Virus record (IMG/VR): IMGVR_UViG_3300005838_000054
Coordinates: 1 to 27,451 of that record
Source: a virus
Length of the DNA: 27,451 bases
Reading direction: 5' to 3' (one strand)
Shown: in pieces, positions 13,909-22,609 of the stretch
How the letters are laid out: the number at the start of each line of letters is the position of its first letter
Numbering within the stretch: the first letter of the stretch is position 1
The notes under the pieces: generated by a model
Database searches by the model: none
What the model was told of the DNA's origin: nothing
The model's input: only the letters and a program-made list of their open reading frames with translations
Made by a program: the position numbers and the translations under genes

Positions 13909-15831
13909 ATGGCTATTATTTATGGAACAAGATTTACATCGTTGCCGAACTGGGGTTCCAGTACGGATTCGTTCAGTCGCGTCCAGTTTAATGGAGCATT
14001 TGATCAATTGGATGTCAATGCTGCCGGGTGGTCTGAAAGCAATATTGCGGCGTCTGGAACAACGAGTGGATTTTTTCATTACAACACAACTGATAACTCA
14101 TTAAAGGTCTATTCGACTGGTGAAACAGCATGGGTTTTGGTGCGAGATGGCTACGAGATGCGCTCGTCCACGGTGGATGCCAAGGGTGACCTTCTTGGCG
14201 GAACAGCGGATAATGCTATTGGGAGACTTGCCGTAGGTACCAACGATCAAGCACTCGTTGCTAATTCTTCTGCTGGTACTGGGTTGGCATGGGCCAACGT
14301 TGTTAACAGTATTACCGGAACGGGTAATGAAGTTGAAGTAGATGCTTCGACTGGGAGTATCACTATTGGTTTGCCCAGCGCTGTAACTATTGGCACTTTG
14401 ACTATCGACAGTGTCGGTATTTCTACTATTCAGACGGGGTCTGAATCGTTTGCCGACAACGACACTTCGGTTATGACCTCTGCTGCGGTGCAGGACAAGA
14501 TCCTTGGATATTCGTATGCAACGGTTGCAGACACTATCCCCATTGCAACCATCGACGCTAAAGGTGATCTTCTCGTTGGAAGTGCAGATGACACCGTCGT
14601 CAATGTTGGGATTGGTGCTGACGGCAGGGTTTTGTCGGCTGATGCTTCTGCGGCGGGCGGCATGGTGTGGAGTACGACGGTTACCAGTGTCACTGGCACG
14701 GCTGCTCAAATTTCGTTGTCAGATTCTTCGGGCGCTGTCACTATTGGCCTTCCGAATGATGTAGCAATTGTTGGAACTCTCACCTTGGATAGCGTGGGAA
14801 TCGCTGCCGTCCAGTCGTCTGGTGAGTCGTTTGCCGATAACGATACGTCGGTGATGACTTCTGCTGCGATTCAGGACAAGATTGAAGCATATGGGTATTC
14901 CACAACGGCGAACACAATCTCGTCTGTTGGTGGAACTTCCAATGAGATTGAGGTTGGACTTGTTTCTGGTGTGGCAACGGTTGGCTTGCCTAACAATGTC
15001 ACGATTACCGGAACGCTTACTGTAGATAGTGTTGGGATTGCGACAGTCCAAACTGGGTCGGAATCGTTTGCTGATAACGACACCTCGTTAATGACCTCCG
15101 CTGCTGTTCAAGACAAGATTCTTGCTTACGCCTACGCCACCACAGCGTCGGCAACGCTCAAGGGAACCCTGACGACTAAGGGTGATATTTACGCTCGTAG
15201 TTCTTCTGCTCCGGCAAGACTGGCCGTCGGCTCCAATAACCAAGCCCTCCTTGCCGATTCGACAGAAACAAAGGGCATGAAGTGGGCTGCTGTCGTTAAC
15301 AGTGTTTCTGGTACTGCCGCTGAGGTTGTTGTTTCGGCATCCACGGGTTCCGTTACTATCGGTCTGCCGGACGATATAACCATTGCCGGAACGTTGACCT
15401 TGGACAGCGTGGGTATCGCTGCGGTTCAAACTTCCGCTGAATCCTTTGCAGATAACAACACTTCGATCATGACTTCTGGGGCTATCGCAGACAAGATCGA
15501 AAACTATGGTTACATTACCGCTAGTCAAGCGATTATTTCGGTTACCGGTACCTCAAATGAGGTGGAGGCATTTACTAGTTCGGGAGCAGTTACGGTTGGC
15601 TTGCCGGACGATGTGACAATTGCTGGAACATTGACATTGAACAGTGTCGGTATTGCTGCGGTCCAGACTGGATCTGGATCATTTTCTGACAATGATACTT
15701 CAATCATGACTTCTGCTGCTGTTCAAGATAAGATTCTGGCATACAGTTATGCAACTACTACTCAGTTGAATGCTTTTCAAACTACTATTGATGATGTGGA
15801 AACCATGTTCCACATGGAGGTTATGGTCTAA
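13909..15831 (+). CDS. Long repetitive tail fibre built from five 72-73 residue repeats
   Basis: 640 residues, start ATG at 13909 with AGGAG at 13897-13901. After an N-terminal ~75 residues and a linker with VDAKGDLLGGTADNAIGRLAVG, the protein is five copies of a repeat with the pattern S(V/I)TGT..E...G.(V/A)T(I/V)GLP.(D/N)(V/I)TI.GTLT(L/I/V)(D/N)SVGI, then (S/F)ADNDTS.MTSAA(V/I)QDKI..Y.Y. Copies 1-2 and 3-4 are separated by ~53-residue KGD(L/I) linkers; copies 2-3 and 4-5 by only six residues. No enzyme signature is seen. The KGDL linker and GLP repeat are known from marine phage fibres, so this is most likely a fibrous trimeric shaft. The last ~25 residues (TTQLNAFQTTIDDVETMFHM) look helical. 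The stop overlaps the next start. Confidence 0.8.
   Translation: MAIIYGTRFTSLPNWGSSTDSFSRVQFNGAFDQLDVNAAGWSESNIAASGTTSGFFHYNTTDNSLKVYSTGETAWVLVRDGYEMRSSTVDAKGDLLGGTADNAIGRLAVGTNDQALVANSSAGTGLAWANVVNSITGTGNEVEVDASTGSITIGLPSAVTIGTLTIDSVGISTIQTGSESFADNDTSVMTSAAVQDKILGYSYATVADTIPIATIDAKGDLLVGSADDTVVNVGIGADGRVLSADASAAGGMVWSTTVTSVTGTAAQISLSDSSGAVTIGLPNDVAIVGTLTLDSVGIAAVQSSGESFADNDTSVMTSAAIQDKIEAYGYSTTANTISSVGGTSNEIEVGLVSGVATVGLPNNVTITGTLTVDSVGIATVQTGSESFADNDTSLMTSAAVQDKILAYAYATTASATLKGTLTTKGDIYARSSSAPARLAVGSNNQALLADSTETKGMKWAAVVNSVSGTAAEVVVSASTGSVTIGLPDDITIAGTLTLDSVGIAAVQTSAESFADNNTSIMTSGAIADKIENYGYITASQAIISVTGTSNEVEAFTSSGAVTVGLPDDVTIAGTLTLNSVGIAAVQTGSGSFSDNDTSIMTSAAVQDKILAYSYATTTQLNAFQTTIDDVETMFHMEVMV
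14308..15756 (+). repeat. Five coding repeats of 216-219 bases in the fibre shaft
   Basis: Copies lie at 14308-14523 (216 bases), 14686-14904, 14923-15141, 15301-15519 and 15538-15756 (each 219 bases). Spacers alternate between long (162 and 159 bases) and short (18 and 18 bases), so the array reads long-1-long-2-short-3-long-4-short-5. DNA divergence between copies is clear, while the protein motif stays conserved, as expected for old duplications under structural selection. Confidence 0.85.
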
Positions 15832-16163
15832 TGGCAATGACTCAGACGAAACTACACGCACCTTCACAGTTGGGAACTTCGCTTTCCACCCTGTACACGG
15901 TGCCGGGTAGTACAACGACAGTCGTCAAGCAGATTGCTCTGTGTAATACTGCCGCGGCTAACCGGACGGTGACTTTGCATCTGGTTCCAAGTGGCGGTTC
16001 GGCGTCGTCTGCGAATGCTATTCTGTTTGACGTAGCGGTGGATTCCAAGTCCACGACGTTCGTAAACTTATCGGCAGTGATGGCTACTGGTGATTTCATT
16101 CAGGCTTCTGCGAGCGTTGCCGCTTCGGTGTCGATTCATTCATTTGGTATTCAGGAGGCGTAA
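15831..16163 (+). CDS. Small beta-rich tail fibre-associated protein
   Basis: 110 residues, starting in the TAATG junction with the fibre gene. The sequence has a regular strand pattern: LSTLYTVPGSTTTVVKQIAL, NRTVTLHLVPSGGS, ANAILFDVAVDSKSTTFV, and a final VSIHSFGIQEA. It looks like a single beta-sandwich of the kind often found as a stand-alone gene or as an end domain in phage tail fibres (the LYTVP...TTVVK opening is recurrent there, from memory). There is no signal or membrane segment. A trimeric fibre cap or connector is a reasonable inference. Its own end carries AGGAGG (16153-16158), which serves the next gene. Confidence 0.6.
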   Translation: MAMTQTKLHAPSQLGTSLSTLYTVPGSTTTVVKQIALCNTAAANRTVTLHLVPSGGSASSANAILFDVAVDSKSTTFVNLSAVMATGDFIQASASVAASVSIHSFGIQEA

Positions 16164-16822
16164 TGGCTGGTCGGTTAGTCCGAATAGGCGCACCTGATGC
16201 TTTAGCGGATTTCTATGATTCGCCGTCGCACATTTTTGGAAGCGGCGAAGATGGTGCCGTCACTATTAGCACCAACACAACCCTGACTCAAGACAAGTAT
16301 TATCTTGACTTGACAGTTGACAGTGGTGTTACTTTGAATACTGCTGGTTACAGGGTTTTCGTTCAACGAAACCTGTTTCTGTCGGGAACCATAGGAATGG
16401 CCGCTGGCCCTTCCGCCCAAGGATCATTAGGTATCGGCACGCAAGATGCGAATGTTGCCAATTCTCTTGGCGGAGCATCAGCAACCTACACGGCAACCGC
16501 ACCCACGGCGGCTCTTGGCGGCGAACAGTGGTACAAGAATGCTTTGAACGCTATCGACGGTTATTCGTTTGATCCTGCTACGGGAACGATCAACCTGTTG
16601 AAAGGTGGAGCAGGGGACGGAACCAACTATGGCGGTGGAGTGGTAATTGTCGCTGCCCGCTATTTGTTTGGAACCGGAAATGTTTTCGCAAAGGGTGCCG
16701 TCAATGCAGGTGGCGGTGTGGTAATTCTGATTTCCTCAGATAAGAGTCATTCCTATACGGTCAGTGCCGCTGGTACTGGTACCGGCAGTGCGGGGAACAC
16801 TTATTTCCTAGAGGCTGACTAA
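16163..16822 (+). CDS. Glycine-rich tail adhesin, short paralogue
   Basis: 219 residues, TAATG start with AGGAGG four bases upstream. After ~25 residues it has GSGEDGAVTISTNTTLTQDK, then YYLDLTVDSGVTLNTAGYRV and FVQRNLFLSGTIG, a beta-helix-like entry domain shared with the next gene. The C-terminal part is a Gly-rich double sheet: LLKGGAGDGTNYGGGVVIVA, ARYLFGTGNVFAKGAVNAGG, GVVILISSDKSHSYTVSAAG. The direct comparison with the next gene shows the same order of segments, so the two are tandem duplicates, this one lacking the large insert. Likely a receptor-binding or fibre-tip protein. Confidence 0.7.
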   Translation: MAGRLVRIGAPDALADFYDSPSHIFGSGEDGAVTISTNTTLTQDKYYLDLTVDSGVTLNTAGYRVFVQRNLFLSGTIGMAAGPSAQGSLGIGTQDANVANSLGGASATYTATAPTAALGGEQWYKNALNAIDGYSFDPATGTINLLKGGAGDGTNYGGGVVIVAARYLFGTGNVFAKGAVNAGGGVVILISSDKSHSYTVSAAGTGTGSAGNTYFLEAD

Positions 16823-18594
16823 TGGCTGACGCAAACTACGATCAGGGCGTTCGTCGGGAAAAAGATCTTCTTCCTTACGTTGTTGAACTTCTTCCCGAAG
16901 ACGAATTTGGCGACCTTCAATTTGATGGCGACCTGATTTTTGGTCATGGCGGCGACGGTGATGTAACCATTACCACGAATACAAGTTTGACTGAAGACAA
17001 GTATTACGGTAACTTGACTATCAATTCAGGAAAGGTTTTGAACCCGAACGGGTTTCGGGTGTTTGTTAAAAACACGTTGACGTTGAATGGCGACTTGGGT
17101 GTCAAAGAAGATGCAACCAGTGTGTCTACGGGTTCGCTAGAAGGAACCGTTGCTGTTGGACAGAATGTTGTTGATGGCTTGGGCGGTTCAGGGGAACCTG
17201 ACGGTTATGTGCCGGGGTACACATTCTCTAGTTCTGGGTCTGTCACCAGTTCGGTTGGTGTGACGGTCCCTGATTTTTATGATCTTCGTGATGCCATCAA
17301 TGCTTACAAGCAGCGCGGTTCCGATTTCATTCGCGTAAAGGGCGGCGCAGGTGGCGGTACGGGAGCGGACGGAATTAGTGGGGCCGGTGCTGACGGCAGT
17401 ATGGGTCCGGGCGCTTCTAACCCCCATCCTAATTATCAGACTGTTGGAGCGGCGGGTGGTAAGGGATCGACAGGCGTGGCCGGTACCGGTGGCGGTGGTG
17501 GTCGGGGTAGCGCAGTTGTAATGGTTTCGGCTCGTCAGATCACTGGGTCTGGTGGTTTGTATTCCGAGGGTGGTGCAGGCGTTTCGGGAACGGCAGGAAC
17601 TCCCGGCACTAAAGCACCTGACGCCACGATAACACCACCTTCTACGTTGGCTCCGGGGAATCATCACCATCGGGAGTCTGGTACGCCGGGTGCTAATGAA
17701 ACTCCGAATCCGGCTGTTACTAACCATCATCAAAATGTTGTTAGTCCGGGTACACCTTTTTCGGGGGATCATCACCATACGTCAGTCACGAACCCCGGAG
17801 AACCATATAACCACGCCACTCAGCCCACAACTAATGATCCGACACATACGTCTGTTGGTGGTAACACGAATGCGGATACAACGAATCATCACGCAACTCC
17901 GGGCACAACTAACAATCCGACACATACGTTTGTTCCCGGTAATACGAATCCGGATGGAACGAATCATCACACTTCAAGCAACCCCGGCACCCATGTGCCG
18001 TCTGGCGGCAACCATAACCCTCCGGTTCCATATCCGGGTCCGGGCGGACACGCACCGGGTAACCAAAATCCGACCAATCACTCCTATCAGCCGGGCAACC
18101 ATCATCACTCTTCAGCGGTAAGTCCGGGTACACCGAATCCAAGTAATCACTTTTCGACGCCGGGCACCCATCACGGTAATCCTGATGGAAGTGCGGTAAG
18201 TCCGGGCACGACTAATCCGACTAATCACTTTTCGACGCCGGGCACCCATCACGGTAATCCTGATGGAAGTGGCGTTAACCCCCCGGTCCAGAACCATCAC
18301 ACAGTTACCAATCCGGGTGGCGTGAATCCGGATGTGCCGAACACTGAACACGGTGCCCACACTACACCGGGGACGACCAACCATCACGGTGTGACCAATC
18401 CGTCGGTTACCACCAATTATCCGACAGAGTATTACATTGGTGGTGCGGGCGGTGCGGGAACTGACGGTCAGCGCGGTGGACGCGGTGGCGGTGGTGTCTT
18501 GATTGTGGTCACCAGAAAAGCCGGTACACCGAGTTACACTCTCAACACAGGAGTAAATGGCAACGCGATTGCCCTAGACACGGCGGATATCTAA
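16822..18594 (+). CDS. Glycine-rich tail adhesin with a ~270-residue His/Asn/X-Pro-Gly insert
   Basis: 590 residues, one-base overlap with its short paralogue. Residues about 35-95 repeat the paralogue's entry domain (FGHGGDGDVTITTNTSLTED, YYGNLTINSGKVLNPNGFRV, FVKNTLTLNGDLG). Gly-rich layers follow (RVKGGAGGGTGADG, GGGGGRGSAVVMVSARQITG). Then, between the two sheet layers that are contiguous in the paralogue, residues about 260-533 form an insert with about 34 His, 18 X-Pro-Gly triplets and many Asn/Thr (TNHHATPGTTNNPTHT, QPGNHHHSSAVSPGTPNP). The Gly-rich sheet then resumes (GGAGGAGTDGQRGGRGGGG, VLIVVTRKAGTPSYTLN). No enzyme motif is present. The insert could be a metal-binding or polyproline-like stalk; HxH-type iron sites of T4 gp37 are a loose precedent only. 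The gene directly precedes the enzyme cassette. Confidence 0.75.
   Translation: MADANYDQGVRREKDLLPYVVELLPEDEFGDLQFDGDLIFGHGGDGDVTITTNTSLTEDKYYGNLTINSGKVLNPNGFRVFVKNTLTLNGDLGVKEDATSVSTGSLEGTVAVGQNVVDGLGGSGEPDGYVPGYTFSSSGSVTSSVGVTVPDFYDLRDAINAYKQRGSDFIRVKGGAGGGTGADGISGAGADGSMGPGASNPHPNYQTVGAAGGKGSTGVAGTGGGGGRGSAVVMVSARQITGSGGLYSEGGAGVSGTAGTPGTKAPDATITPPSTLAPGNHHHRESGTPGANETPNPAVTNHHQNVVSPGTPFSGDHHHTSVTNPGEPYNHATQPTTNDPTHTSVGGNTNADTTNHHATPGTTNNPTHTFVPGNTNPDGTNHHTSSNPGTHVPSGGNHNPPVPYPGPGGHAPGNQNPTNHSYQPGNHHHSSAVSPGTPNPSNHFSTPGTHHGNPDGSAVSPGTTNPTNHFSTPGTHHGNPDGSGVNPPVQNHHTVTNPGGVNPDVPNTEHGAHTTPGTTNHHGVTNPSVTTNYPTEYYIGGAGGAGTDGQRGGRGGGGVLIVVTRKAGTPSYTLNTGVNGNAIALDTADI
18115..18270 (+). repeat. Two tandem 78-base repeats inside the His/Pro-rich insert
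   Basis: Unit 1 is 18115-18192 and unit 2 is 18193-18270. The last part is identical over 50 bases (18144-18193 and 18222-18271); the first ~28 bases differ at a few positions. Each unit encodes 26 residues with SPGT, NHFSTPGTHHG and NPDGS. The high DNA identity points to a recent duplication, in contrast to the diverged repeats of the upstream fibre. Confidence 0.9.
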
Positions 18595-19044
18595 ATGAAA
18601 ACAATGATGTATGTTCCTGAAAAGGAACAGACTGAAGACTATTTGAAAGAAGCGGAATGGTGGGGCATAGAGATATGCCACGGTATGCCGCCGAAGGTGT
18701 TGGAAGAGTTTCCCGATATCACCCCACCTGAAGCATCTATCGTCAAGATTCCTGAAATCAATGACATATCTATGCGGTGTGGAGAAATGCCCGTTGGGCA
18801 TTACCAGAATATTTTATTGGTGAATGAGTATGTCGATTTGAGAGATGGGGATCTCTCATTGGATCTAGTGGAAAACCGCAAGAAGGAAACTGTTTTTGAA
18901 GGGTTGAAGCCTCAGTGGACTGAACGTAGTCGGGCACGATGGTCGTTCGTGGTAGAGGGTTTGGGCAGATACACAGCGAAAGTGATGCTAGATTCTGATG
19001 AGATTTCTTGTATCAATTTCTACGCGTTTAAAAGGCTCACTTGA
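18595..19044 (+). CDS. Unknown protein at the head of the oxygenase-halogenase cassette
   Basis: 149 residues, starting directly after the previous stop (TAA then ATG). I do not recognise the family. It has a charged N-terminal half (EKEQTEDYLKEAEWWGIEI, PKVLEEFPDITPPEASIV) and a C-terminal half with possible beta strands (NILLVNEYVDL, ARWSFVVEGLGRYTAKVML, SCINFYAFKRL). No signal peptide, membrane segment or metal motif is seen. Its stop overlaps the start of the first oxygenase gene (TGATG), so the two are probably translated together, which suggests a role with the enzymes, such as substrate binding. Confidence 0.55.
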   Translation: MKTMMYVPEKEQTEDYLKEAEWWGIEICHGMPPKVLEEFPDITPPEASIVKIPEINDISMRCGEMPVGHYQNILLVNEYVDLRDGDLSLDLVENRKKETVFEGLKPQWTERSRARWSFVVEGLGRYTAKVMLDSDEISCINFYAFKRLT

Positions 19045-19844
19045 TGGAACTATTGGCACCGGGTTTGGCCATTTGGCGTAATCAGCCTTATGGCGAAGTC
19101 GATGATGAATTCGTTTTAGATTTGTGGAGAGAAAGATACGAAGCAGATCGTGAAACAAAATGGACTGGCAATCCTAAAGACGGACCGGTTGCTGGCCACG
19201 AAGCGGCTTATGGTCCTCTCAGGTGTCGAAACATTCCGCGTCACGGTGGTTTGGTACGGGGTAACAAGTATGACGATTTCACTTTCATACTTCAGGAAGA
19301 TTTGTTTGCATGTTTGTCAGATTACGCGTACGAATATCGGACGCTTCCTATTGATCTAGGATGGCAGGAAACCCACAGGCTCCTTTATTATTATCCGGGT
19401 GCCCAAATGGGGCCACATTCAGACAACACCCCTACTCGTTTTCAAGATGCCCACGGAGGGGAGGTTACTGATCCTGTGGCACCGTCACGGGTTCTGTGTT
19501 CTTTGCAGTTTTTAACCACTAATGAAAAAGACTTTGTTGGAGGCGAATTACATTTTCCGTTTTTGGATGTGGAATACAGGCCATCCAAGGGTGACACTTT
19601 GATTTATCCTGCCAACTTTTTGCATACGCATAGCGTGCAAGCGGTCTTGGATGGAATCAGGATTACAAATCTTTCGTGCTTCTGTCAGGGGGATTTCACC
19701 AAGTTAGCATGGGTGGATATGGGTAATGGTGGTGGGAGGGATTCCGATAACAATGTTCCGGTGCCGGGTGGAAACATGCATATAGAACACGAAGATCTAG
19801 GGGAGAGGCTTAAATTCAAATGGAGGTCGTATGCCAATTCATAA
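19044..19844 (+). CDS. 2-oxoglutarate/Fe(II)-dependent oxygenase, P4H-like (first of two)
   Basis: 266 residues from the ATG of TGATG at 19044; a TTG at 19041 is in frame but inside the previous gene. The double-stranded beta-helix oxygenase signature is complete: LLYYYPGAQMGPHSDNT gives H125 and D127 of the HxD iron motif; LCSLQFLT then GGELHFPFLDVEYRPSKGD; and NFLHTHSVQAVLDGIRITNL gives H196 with R206 ten residues later, the usual distal His and the 2-oxoglutarate-binding Arg. The YYPG...HSD and GGEL.FP....V.P..GD spacings are typical of prolyl 4-hydroxylase-like enzymes. The reaction would be oxygen- and 2-oxoglutarate-dependent hydroxylation of an unknown substrate. The N-terminal ~85 residues are a family-specific extension. 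It overlaps the next gene by 14 bases. Confidence 0.88.
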   Translation: MELLAPGLAIWRNQPYGEVDDEFVLDLWRERYEADRETKWTGNPKDGPVAGHEAAYGPLRCRNIPRHGGLVRGNKYDDFTFILQEDLFACLSDYAYEYRTLPIDLGWQETHRLLYYYPGAQMGPHSDNTPTRFQDAHGGEVTDPVAPSRVLCSLQFLTTNEKDFVGGELHFPFLDVEYRPSKGDTLIYPANFLHTHSVQAVLDGIRITNLSCFCQGDFTKLAWVDMGNGGGRDSDNNVPVPGGNMHIEHEDLGERLKFKWRSYANS

Positions 19845-20409
19845 TCCTGCTCCCGGCATGGCTGTTATGGAGAATGCTTATCCAGAATCAGCAAAGTTCT
19901 TGGCAGATATTATTGAAGCAGCCGAATTGGAATATTCCCCCAGCGCGTGGCGGCGCTCCCAGACAGGACACGGAACTTTAGGGGATCACAGAAGCAGTGT
20001 TGAATCTGATTTTACGCAACTTCTCTGTAGCCGCGAACCAGAATATGAGGCTCTTGCCGAATCAACTAGATCGTTTCAACAGACTTTGGACGAGTTGGTA
20101 AACGAATTCAAGAGTGTTTACGATCTTGGCTTATGTTCAGACGAGGGACTTCGATGCATCCGTTACCAGAATAAGGCTGAATACAGGATTCATCATGATC
20201 ATGGGGAACTCAATATGCGGGCATTGAGCATGGTGATGTTTCTCAATGACGACTTTGAAGGAGGGCAATTAGAATTTCCCTACTTCGATGTTACGATTCA
20301 ACCCAAGGCCGGACAGTTGGTGTTTTTTCCTTCCAACTTTCCTTACGCTCACATCGCTCATCCTGTAGAAGAGGGAACCAAATACACGCTTGTTACATGG
20401 TTCCGCTGA
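19831..20409 (+). CDS. 2-oxoglutarate/Fe(II)-dependent oxygenase, P4H-like (second of two)
   Basis: 192 residues, with AAATGGAGG shortly upstream inside the end of the first oxygenase. Iron ligands H121 and D123 lie in YRIHHDHGEL; the strand MRALSMVMFLNDDFEGGQLE leads to FPYFDVTIQPKAGQLVFFP; the distal His is H174 in YAHIAHPVEEGTKYTLVTWF, with K184 at +10 taking the place of the Arg that binds 2-oxoglutarate (Lys is common in prolyl 4-hydroxylases). It shares the GG.L.FP.FDV...P..G pattern with the first oxygenase but is diverged elsewhere, so this is either an old duplication or an independent gain. It probably hydroxylates a peptide or small molecule. The substrate is unknown. Confidence 0.88.
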   Translation: MPIHNPAPGMAVMENAYPESAKFLADIIEAAELEYSPSAWRRSQTGHGTLGDHRSSVESDFTQLLCSREPEYEALAESTRSFQQTLDELVNEFKSVYDLGLCSDEGLRCIRYQNKAEYRIHHDHGELNMRALSMVMFLNDDFEGGQLEFPYFDVTIQPKAGQLVFFPSNFPYAHIAHPVEEGTKYTLVTWFR

Positions 20410-20418
20410 GTATATTTC

Positions 20419-21897
20419 ATGGCTGACAGGATTAAAGACAGACGAGTTGTTGTTGTCGGCGGTGGAAATGCTGGTTTGGTAACTGCTTTAGTTTTACGTC
20501 AGGCGTTTAGTGGTTACAGAATCACTGTTATCCAATCGGATGCCATCGGAACGATTGGTGTAGGGGAGGGGTCCACAGAGCAATGGCGTGGATTCATGAA
20601 CTATGTGGGCATTCCTGTGGCGGAGTTGATATCAGCGACAGGGGCAACCCATAAAAAGGGAATCCGTTTTGAGGGCTGGAACGAACATACTCCCGATTAT
20701 TTTCATGCCACCACAGGTATATGCGATCCACCTATGGTATTCGGTTTTAATGCTGCCTATGGAAAATTGATTTCTGAAGGCAAGTTATTGACCGATCACA
20801 CTTCACATCCTAAACTAAAAGAAAATCAGATTCCTTCTATCAATGCTCATCAACAGGTTAATCAATTTCACTTTGATACACATGAGTTAAATTATTTTCT
20901 TAGATTCAAAGCAGAACAAAAGAATATTACTTTTATAGAAGGGGAAGTAGAAGATGTCAGGGTTTCTGATGATTGGATCGGAAGTGTAGGACTCGTCGGT
21001 CAGGAAGAAAGAATCACTGGTGATTTTTGGATTGATGCTTCTGGATTCCGACAGGTGTTGATGTCTGAACTCTCCGATAAAAAATGGAACTCGTTTAGTA
21101 AATATCTTTTGGGTGATTCGGCAATCGCTTTTCCAACTCCATCTGATGAGAGCGGGGAAATCCGAACGTATACCCGAGCAAGAGCCATGAAAAATGGATG
21201 GGCTTGGGAGATCCCTACTCAGTTCAGGCGCGGCAACGGCTATGTGTATTCTTCAAAGTTTTGTTCAGAGGAGGATGCCGTATCCGAGATGGAAGAACTA
21301 TTGGACATCCGACTATCGGACTACAAACATTTTCGATTTGATCCGGGCTATCTGGAAAAGATGTGGGTAGGGAACTGTATCGCCGTGGGTCTTGCGGGTT
21401 CGTTCGTGGAACCTCTAGAGGCGACATCCATTGGGTCCACGATTCAACAGGCGTTTATGATGGTTGGAGGGTTGGCGTCATTCCGTAAAGGATATGTATG
21501 GGGGGCTAGAGAATATAATCGTCAGTTTGAAGACATCATGTCTAATATTTTGGACATGATCAGATTGCATTATATTTCTGATCGCACAGATACTGATTTC
21601 TGGTTAGCGCAACAGGAGACACCCATACCGGAAAATTTGGAACATCTATTGGGTTTATGGTCGGAGCGTCCTTTGCAAGACACGGACGCATCCGGAGCGT
21701 ATTGGATGTTCAGTCATCCGCACTTTGCTCATGTGGCTCAAGGCCAAGGAGTTTTCAATCTTCAGGCATCGCAGGATGCTTTGGATGCTTTCGGTATCAA
21801 TGATACTGTGAATGATTATATGTGGAACTTGAAAGAACAGCGAAGTTGCCCTGTGAGGGATCATGCTGAAGCGCTTAAAGAACTTATCGAAGATTAG
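20419..21897 (+). CDS. Flavin-dependent halogenase (tryptophan halogenase family)
   Basis: 492 residues. The hallmarks are all visible: FAD-binding VVVVGGGNAGLVTA (G14, G16, G19); GVGEGSTEQW, the family's GxGE motif; K79 in ATHKKGIRFEGW, aligned with the catalytic Lys79 of PrnA; W261 to P266 (WAWEIP), the WxWxIP motif that marks halogenases off from monooxygenases; and SFVEPLEATSI, whose E334 aligns with catalytic Glu346 of PrnA. The next residue is Ala335 where PrnA and RebH have Ser. Such enzymes use reduced FAD, oxygen and halide to halogenate aromatic compounds. The flavin reductase partner is not in the window and may come from the host. A cyanophage enzyme of this class (VirX1) is known to iodinate diverse substrates, so a phage origin is not itself new. 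It overlaps the next gene by 35 bases. Confidence 0.92.
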   Translation: MADRIKDRRVVVVGGGNAGLVTALVLRQAFSGYRITVIQSDAIGTIGVGEGSTEQWRGFMNYVGIPVAELISATGATHKKGIRFEGWNEHTPDYFHATTGICDPPMVFGFNAAYGKLISEGKLLTDHTSHPKLKENQIPSINAHQQVNQFHFDTHELNYFLRFKAEQKNITFIEGEVEDVRVSDDWIGSVGLVGQEERITGDFWIDASGFRQVLMSELSDKKWNSFSKYLLGDSAIAFPTPSDESGEIRTYTRARAMKNGWAWEIPTQFRRGNGYVYSSKFCSEEDAVSEMEELLDIRLSDYKHFRFDPGYLEKMWVGNCIAVGLAGSFVEPLEATSIGSTIQQAFMMVGGLASFRKGYVWGAREYNRQFEDIMSNILDMIRLHYISDRTDTDFWLAQQETPIPENLEHLLGLWSERPLQDTDASGAYWMFSHPHFAHVAQGQGVFNLQASQDALDAFGINDTVNDYMWNLKEQRSCPVRDHAEALKELIED

Positions 21898-22609
21898 AAG
21901 TTACATCGACTGGCCCAAGGTCCAGCCGGGTGAGATTCTGGTTGTTCCTTCAGACAACAGGCTGCATGAGCATCCCCCGTTTCTCAATGATAAAGGTTGG
22001 CCTGATTGGTATAAGGCTCCGGAAATAGCGGAAGCCGGAACCATCAACAGTTGTAAGGGCATTCAAGATTATTTGTCAATAGGAATGACTGTGCCCCTAT
22101 GGTGTGATGTCGAAGTTTCTCCGCTGGGGATGGACGATATGACGGCCCGCACCAGTGATGCTGCGTTTGAGATACAGAGATTCGACAAGCGGATGACAAG
22201 GGGATGCCCAATAGCCAAAGGGCGTGAACGACCCAATGCTGGTTGGCCCAAGATCGTATCCCCATGGCTCTATAAGACTGCTCCGGGCTACTCCACGTTG
22301 GCGTTGCCGATTGCTTACGAACCGGATCCCCGGTACCAAGTCTTACCAGCAGTAATTCATACTGATTATTATCATAACTTGCATGTTGTGATTAGAGCAA
22401 TGGTAGAAGATAATTTTACTATTACGGCGGGAACTCCCATTTATCAACTATTTCCTTTTAAACGTAAGAATAAGTTGCACACTATTATTATGGGTGATGC
22501 AGCGATGCATCGTGATGGGCAAACCCGAGGCATGAACTACGGATCTATAGGGAAATTTTCTGTCAAGGGTGCTTACCGGAAACATCAACGGAAGGCTGAC
22601 GCCGACTAA
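21863..22609 (+). CDS. Conserved protein of unknown function linked to the halogenase
   Basis: 248 residues, starting inside the halogenase gene (35-base overlap, with GAGGGA just upstream of the ATG). Visible features: PPFLNDKGWPDWYK, NSCKGIQDYLSIGMTVPLWC and DVEVSP, then VSPWLYKTAPGYSTLALPIA, HTDYYHNLHVVIRAM, FTITAGTPIYQLFPFKRK. This DWYK / C..(I/F)..D....G / PLW.D / (T)APGYS / D.Y / GTP..Q.FPFKR set resembles a family I remember from marine phages and from bacterial halogenase or 2OG neighbourhoods (labelled DUF6065 or similar); the identity is not verified. No known catalytic triad is evident. The overlap suggests it works with the halogenase, for example as a substrate-handling partner. 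Confidence 0.6.
   Translation: MLKRLKNLSKIRSYIDWPKVQPGEILVVPSDNRLHEHPPFLNDKGWPDWYKAPEIAEAGTINSCKGIQDYLSIGMTVPLWCDVEVSPLGMDDMTARTSDAAFEIQRFDKRMTRGCPIAKGRERPNAGWPKIVSPWLYKTAPGYSTLALPIAYEPDPRYQVLPAVIHTDYYHNLHVVIRAMVEDNFTITAGTPIYQLFPFKRKNKLHTIIMGDAAMHRDGQTRGMNYGSIGKFSVKGAYRKHQRKADAD

Follow-up and report, generated by a model that had tools for sequence, protein, structure and literature searches.

The complete viral record IMGVR_UViG_3300005838_000054, from a marine phage (27,451 bases; the window in what follows), carries a block of five genes, C1–C5 (18595..22609), that encodes two predicted 2-oxoglutarate (2OG)/Fe(II) oxygenases, a predicted flavin-dependent halogenase and two putative partner proteins directly downstream of w15, the gene for an adhesin-like fibre. 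The best explanation of our results, to which we give slightly better than even credence, is that the block is a cassette for fibre modification that acts on the hypervariable segment of w15, which would be hydroxylated and, where rich in histidine (His), halogenated as well. We infer catalysis on the fibre from the linkage of the enzyme genes to the w14/w15 fibre pair, a difference in His and tyrosine (Tyr) content that follows the halogenase, co-divergence of segment and enzymes, a natural loss in the related locus L306, the protein-hydroxylating relatives of C3, the glycosyltransferases of halogenase-free cassettes, and purifying selection. We assign the fibre as substrate, the residues targeted, the resulting products and any consequence for host binding only putatively, from sequence comparison.

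As proposed, a late transcript would encode the w15 adhesin-like fibre and then, directly, the enzymes that modify its hypervariable segment. Oxygenases of the prolyl 4-hydroxylase (P4H) type would hydroxylate proline, asparagine or His residues of the segment, and C4, with reduced flavin supplied by a host reductase, would halogenate its aromatic side chains, His being the most likely halogenation target in the window's clade. C1 and C5 may serve as conserved partners, perhaps as substrate-binding or scaffold proteins, and the receptor-binding tip would in the end be altered chemically.

Linkage of the enzyme genes to a fibre pair

On the plus strand of the window, w14 (16163..16822), which encodes a 219-residue glycine-rich fibre protein, is followed by w15 (16822..18594; 590 residues), and the two products have an N-terminal domain in common. 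w15 combines a conserved N-terminal domain with glycine-rich blocks, the hypervariable segment (17614..18435; 274 residues rich in His, proline, asparagine and threonine) and a conserved C-terminal end. C1 (18595..19044) starts on the base right after the w15 stop codon, with no base between, and is followed on the same strand by C2 (19041..19844), C3 (19831..20409), C4 (20419..21897) and C5 (21863..22609), with overlaps of 4 nt (C1/C2), 14 nt (C2/C3) and 35 nt (C4/C5) and a gap of 9 nt between C3 and C4. The five overlapping or closely spaced genes described here by the initial annotation were recovered as open reading frames at these positions with their motifs intact, and its placement of the cassette within the structural region held: the window contains tape-measure, baseplate and fibre genes, C1–C5 are flanked on each side by tail and fibre families, and the block is followed by a 78-residue gene, C6 (22634..22870), and then by further fibre genes.

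To compare related phages, we fetched ~370 viral loci (designated "L" plus a number) from scans with w14 and halogenase alignments; many of these overlapped or were near-identical, and dereplication was therefore applied throughout. The w14 alignment scan alone found 317 viral relatives, the best 80 of which were kept. Before the last scans, 144 of 201 halogenase loci also carried w14/w15, and the others were short or of the cyanophage/pelagiphage type. After dereplication, 65 loci combined w14/w15 with a full-length halogenase. Every one of them has C5, which follows the halogenase directly in 61; 64 have an oxygenase and 51 have C1, and the distance from w15 to the halogenase had a median of 1.8 kb and a maximum of 3.9 kb. 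When loci were selected for 6 kb of sequence flanking the fibre pair at either end (31 after dereplication), C5 was found in 31, an oxygenase in 30, C1 in 24 and the halogenase in 18. The usual order runs from fibre to enzymes and is reversed in L023, L092 and L138; the association thus recurs in two gene orders, on contigs of about 10–200 kb. One locus, L274, holds two halogenases and two fibre pairs.

In a second lineage there is no halogenase, and the fibre pair is accompanied by C1, oxygenases and between one and three C5 genes. Halogenase-free members of the window's own genus were also sought: a search of viral contigs returned only contigs already known, and in a halogenase-independent w14 scan for such loci of the window type, those lacking the gene were short or ended at a contig end. 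The genome records closest to the window are metagenome-assembled genome (MAG) contigs named Gammaproteobacteria and Verrucomicrobiales, names that may reflect binning.

These distributions bear on two proposals of the initial annotation. It had suggested one modification system acting on structural proteins; comparative support was obtained for this idea, with the likely substrate narrowed to the w15 segment, but the notion of a fixed five-gene unit did not survive. The closest viral contigs are colinear with the window and vary in the two upstream genes, C1 and C2: instead of this pair, L002, L020 and L021 encode a different 2OG oxygenase, and L008 carries both sets. In cyanophages and pelagiphages, halogenases of the same superfamily are also found where this fibre is absent; in HTVC008M, for instance, an oxygenase–halogenase pair lies between terS and terL. 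The annotation's alternative was the chance arrival of a gene set for host metabolism, and publications do list both kinds of enzyme in cyanophages as auxiliary metabolic or host-derived genes, proposing that they affect 2OG/nitrogen status or the metabolites of the host (PMC3037559; PMC10452541). We consider this alternative very improbable: it fits poorly with an association with w14/w15 that recurs across contigs in two orders and with a separate halogenase-free lineage that has C1, oxygenases and C5. Nor were the genes scattered and never together, an outcome looked for across the relatives; in many phages they remain grouped next to w14/w15.

Composition of the w15 segment and an apparent loss in L306

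The w15 segment of the window contains 34 His, 6 Tyr and 0 Trp in 274 residues; tandem repeats of 78 bp (26 residues) lie within it at 17812–17970 and 18115–18271. In a first set of 20 segments from halogenase-bearing loci and 23 from loci scored as lacking the gene (these including L077, whose contig is truncated and whose twin, L078, does carry a halogenase), median His content was 22.2% with and 6.2% without the halogenase, and median Tyr content was 4.0% and 14.8%, respectively. In the final set of 104 dereplicated loci, for which residues were counted in w15 beyond residue 130, His outnumbered Tyr in 76 of 77 halogenase-bearing loci and in 0 of 27 halogenase-free loci. A locus was scored as halogenase-free only if it showed both an oxygenase and C5 or extended for 6 kb or more in each direction; L306 was admitted to this class by hand, and eight contig-end loci were left out. 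Because the His–Tyr comparison was picked after the sequences had been read, and because several statistics of composition and of correlation were calculated, the p-values given here are exploratory. Turnover of the segment is high, in that clustering 69 segments from halogenase-bearing loci at a threshold of 15% shared 4-mers gave 40 groups.

A His-rich segment could instead bind metal ions, with the oxygenases at most acting on it and the halogenase working elsewhere. HxH motifs bind metal ions in some other fibres, and the richest 100 residues of the segments contain a median of 25 and up to 45 His; zinc is bound by His-rich proteins in Nereis jaws (PMC13120676). Metal binding leaves unexplained, however, both the way in which His content follows the halogenase and the Tyr-rich segments of halogenase-free cassettes that keep their oxygenases, and we give it very little weight. 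A more detailed form of the fibre-modification proposal, which we advance tentatively and rate well short of an even chance, is that the phage hydroxylates and halogenates its own His-rich adhesin loop, and that the sister lineage, with oxygenases, Tyr-rich loops, possible glycosyltransferases and no halogenase, represents an interchangeable form of tip decoration.

L306, a contig from a Verrucomicrobiales MAG whose w14 is 79% identical to that of the window, provides a natural loss. Between w15 and the 78-residue C6, this locus contains one oxygenase alone, C1, C2, the halogenase and C5 being absent there. The oxygenase (L306:2646-3245) is a C3 orthologue (41%) in which His121 is replaced by Arg and His174 by Phe, so that two of three iron ligands are lost, and by sequence it is a predicted pseudoenzyme. 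The L306 w15 segment is Cys-rich with little His, and the His-rich loop is gone. The missing enzymes may sit elsewhere, as the contig stops short of the region upstream of w13. C6 was considered as a cassette member and ruled out; since it is kept in L306, we assign it to the structural backbone.

Among nine members of the window's genus, similarity of the segment correlated with that of the halogenase (rho 0.61, Mantel p 0.0015), C3 (rho 0.66, p 0.01) and C5 (rho 0.77, p 0.0005); for the flanking genes the values were 0.10 (w14), 0.24 (w13) and −0.07 (w16). Here w13 (15831..16163, plus strand; 110 residues) is the first gene of the conserved fibre block and a neighbour of w14/w15 in the majority of related loci. 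In 48 other phages, partial correlations given w14 were 0.21 for the halogenase and 0.20 for C5 (p 0.002), compared to 0.03 for the w15 N-terminal domain. C3, the halogenase and C5 are under purifying selection, with ratios of nonsynonymous to synonymous substitution (dN/dS) of 0.07–0.11 where dS was unsaturated.

Co-divergence could also arise if the segment and the enzyme genes occupy one recombination hotspot and move together as a host-range block, the enzymes having some other job. The segment and C1–C5 are contiguous, the enzymes are more diverged than w14, and in Hafunaviridae glycine-rich adhesins are a host-range determinant whose genes lie in a hypervariable region (PMC8651126). Exchange of this kind leaves two things unaccounted for: the recurrence of a His-rich composition in dissimilar segments with the halogenase and of a Tyr-rich one without it, and the loss of iron ligands from the L306 C3 orthologue. 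We regard it as unlikely, if worth serious consideration.

Several observations weigh against modification of the fibre by these enzymes. Co-divergence of adjacent genes is equally expected from exchange of one contiguous block and therefore demonstrates shared history rather than contact. One locus, L308, is the lone exception to the His–Tyr pattern, having a halogenase and a w15 with 19 Tyr and 7 His. On the w14 tree the halogenase label changes twice and the His label three times, giving two independent contrasts, so that no sign test can reach 0.05. Some His-rich segments, that of L252 among them, have little or no proline, and a pure prolyl hydroxylase would thus have little substrate there. 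No His-rich protein was found in the fetched flanks of the cyanophage/pelagiphage-type halogenases. Finally, most halogenases of the set, C4 included, have EPLEA next to the active-site Glu (C4 residues 329–337) where VirX1 has EPLES, a variant that adds uncertainty to the predicted halogenating activity.

Predicted enzymes and partner proteins

C4 (492 residues) matches Pfam Trp_halogenase (PF04820) over residues 9–448, a full-length profile match with an E-value of 2.4e-100 and a score of 337 bits against a cut-off of 21. All of the family motifs are present (GGGNAG at 14–19, K79, WAWEIP at 261–266 and E334 in FVEPLEATS), and C4 is thus a predicted flavin-dependent halogenase. It shares 29% identity over most of its length with Syn9 gp42, which matches VirX1 end to end.

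C3 (192 residues) matches Pfam 2OG-FeII_Oxy_3 (E-value 1.4e-15), and its closest solved relatives are the prolyl 4-hydroxylase entries 3itq and 5hv0, followed by prolyl 3-hydroxylase 1 and LH3. Alignment with 3itq and relatives places the iron ligands at H121/D123/H174 and the 2OG lysine at K184, the HxD...H arrangement and basic 2OG-binding residue of P4H-like 2OG oxygenases; the three ligands are retained in 11 of 12 aligned sequences and lost in L306. C3 therefore appears P4H-like, with a putative prolyl substrate. C2 (267 residues, TTG start) matches the same Pfam family (E-value 3e-6), and its putative ligands, an HSD at 126, H197 and R207, are assigned by motif only.

The enzymes might act instead on a small molecule or a component of the host surface, either a ligand carried by the fibre or a receptor changed so as to exclude other phages, with adjacency to the adhesin reflecting a common receptor. 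VirX1 accepts many small aromatic substrates, and some cassettes include P450, ferredoxin, FkbM-like or glycosyltransferase genes. Against this, the closest solved relatives of C3 are protein hydroxylases and the composition of the fibre itself shifts with the halogenase; we judge action on such targets improbable.

Glycosyltransferases of the PF11397 GlcNAc type and of GT25 lie beside 2OG oxygenases in halogenase-free cassettes (L082:8700-9926, L122:13727-14866 and L082:12310-12978), a 4Fe-4S ferredoxin is found in another such cassette (L095:10974-11234), and a cytochrome P450 occurs in a halogenase-bearing one (L013:11203-12447); by annotation, some halogenase-bearing cassettes carry a P450 or GT2 gene. 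The PF11397 and GT25 families include transferases that act on hydroxylated protein residues, namely Skp1 hydroxyproline and procollagen hydroxylysine. As annotated, the glycosyltransferases, P450 and ferredoxin would be company expected of a modification system.

C1 (149 residues) gave no Pfam match; its AlphaFold model (predicted local distance difference test, pLDDT, 96) is all-beta, with Foldseek matches to filamin/Ig-like domains, and C1 is a putative partner. C5 (248 residues), kept beside the halogenase, has a dUTPase fold as modelled (pLDDT 89; Foldseek best E-value 1.3e-4; VIA Z 10.2 to dUTPase over 120 residues, with a root-mean-square deviation of 3.1). We do not file it as a member of that family: C5 scored 13.1 bits against Pfam dUTPase, below the gathering score of 22, and sequence profiles recognised only the stretch 159–198 and did not pick up the dUTPase catalytic motifs. 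S-RIM4 and haloarchaeal viruses have C5 homologues and no halogenase, and the halogenase–C5 pair is also found outside the w14/w15 family, in Syn9, where gp42 is followed by gp43 (C5 homologue, E-value 1e-9). A scan of viral contigs with C5 reached only three close contigs. On L067, a second C5 copy (L067:16018-16743; 53% to the window C5) lies further downstream on the same contig.

A defence system was also considered and rejected, as a PADLOC scan gave only generic matches, to 2OG and a weak methyltransferase profile, and no system-specific model was matched.

Related systems and biological meaning

With its glycine-rich blocks and hypervariable segments, w15 resembles the gp38-type adhesins of T-even phages, phage S16 and Hafunaviridae, and differs from them in a segment that is long, of low complexity and His-rich. 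It probably works like such an adhesin, as a candidate member of the group, with putative tip position and receptor binding. A tblastn search of a phages collection with w15, with the low-complexity filter on, gave no match, and a search of this collection with w14 found only the Halorubrum virus HRTV-15 (L323). The HRTV-15 adhesin shares the w14/w15 N-terminal domain over 53 residues and has a C5 homologue ~1 kb away (the two genes at L323 6857-7678 and 8574-9578), but no oxygenase or halogenase is annotated near it.

VirX1/Syn9 gp42 (6qgm) belongs to the same family as C4, with the same catalytic motifs and the C5 homologue gp43 next downstream, and Syn9 also has 2OG oxygenases and tail-fibre genes near its halogenase; it differs in that no w14/w15 was found beside the gene. 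Like C3, whose best matches are P4H structures, the Bacillus enzymes and that of Chlorella virus PBCV-1 are prolyl 4-hydroxylases, whereas the window joins a predicted hydroxylase, with a putative substrate, to a halogenase and an adhesin. Eriksson (1999), as cited in PMC9301287, had already reported a viral P4H and the presence of hydroxyproline in proteins of viruses; PMC9301287 itself calls the use of P4H by marine viruses cryptic and mentions viral collagen in tail fibres. The halogenase-free cassettes with PF11397 beside 2OG oxygenases recall Skp1 hydroxyproline glycosylation by a prolyl hydroxylase and a GlcNAc transferase (PMC11570480, PMC3515798), but the window cassette lacks a glycosyltransferase. 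Nereis jaw proteins (Nvjp-1, Nai11527; PMC13120676) are likewise Gly/His-rich structural proteins, from a tissue with zinc and halogens; they are animal proteins of unrelated sequence and offer an analogy only.

Adhesin modules of phages and protein-modifying enzymes encoded by viruses are both known kinds of element, and it is their combination that appears new, as it was not found described in the literature searched. The same search, which most subscription journals lay outside, found no published fibre halogenation or hydroxylation. We know of no natural substrate for VirX1. If the proposal is correct, a protein would be the native substrate of a flavin-dependent halogenase, phages would extend adhesin chemistry beyond the twenty amino acids, and part of the 'metabolic' gene content of marine phages would be host-range machinery.

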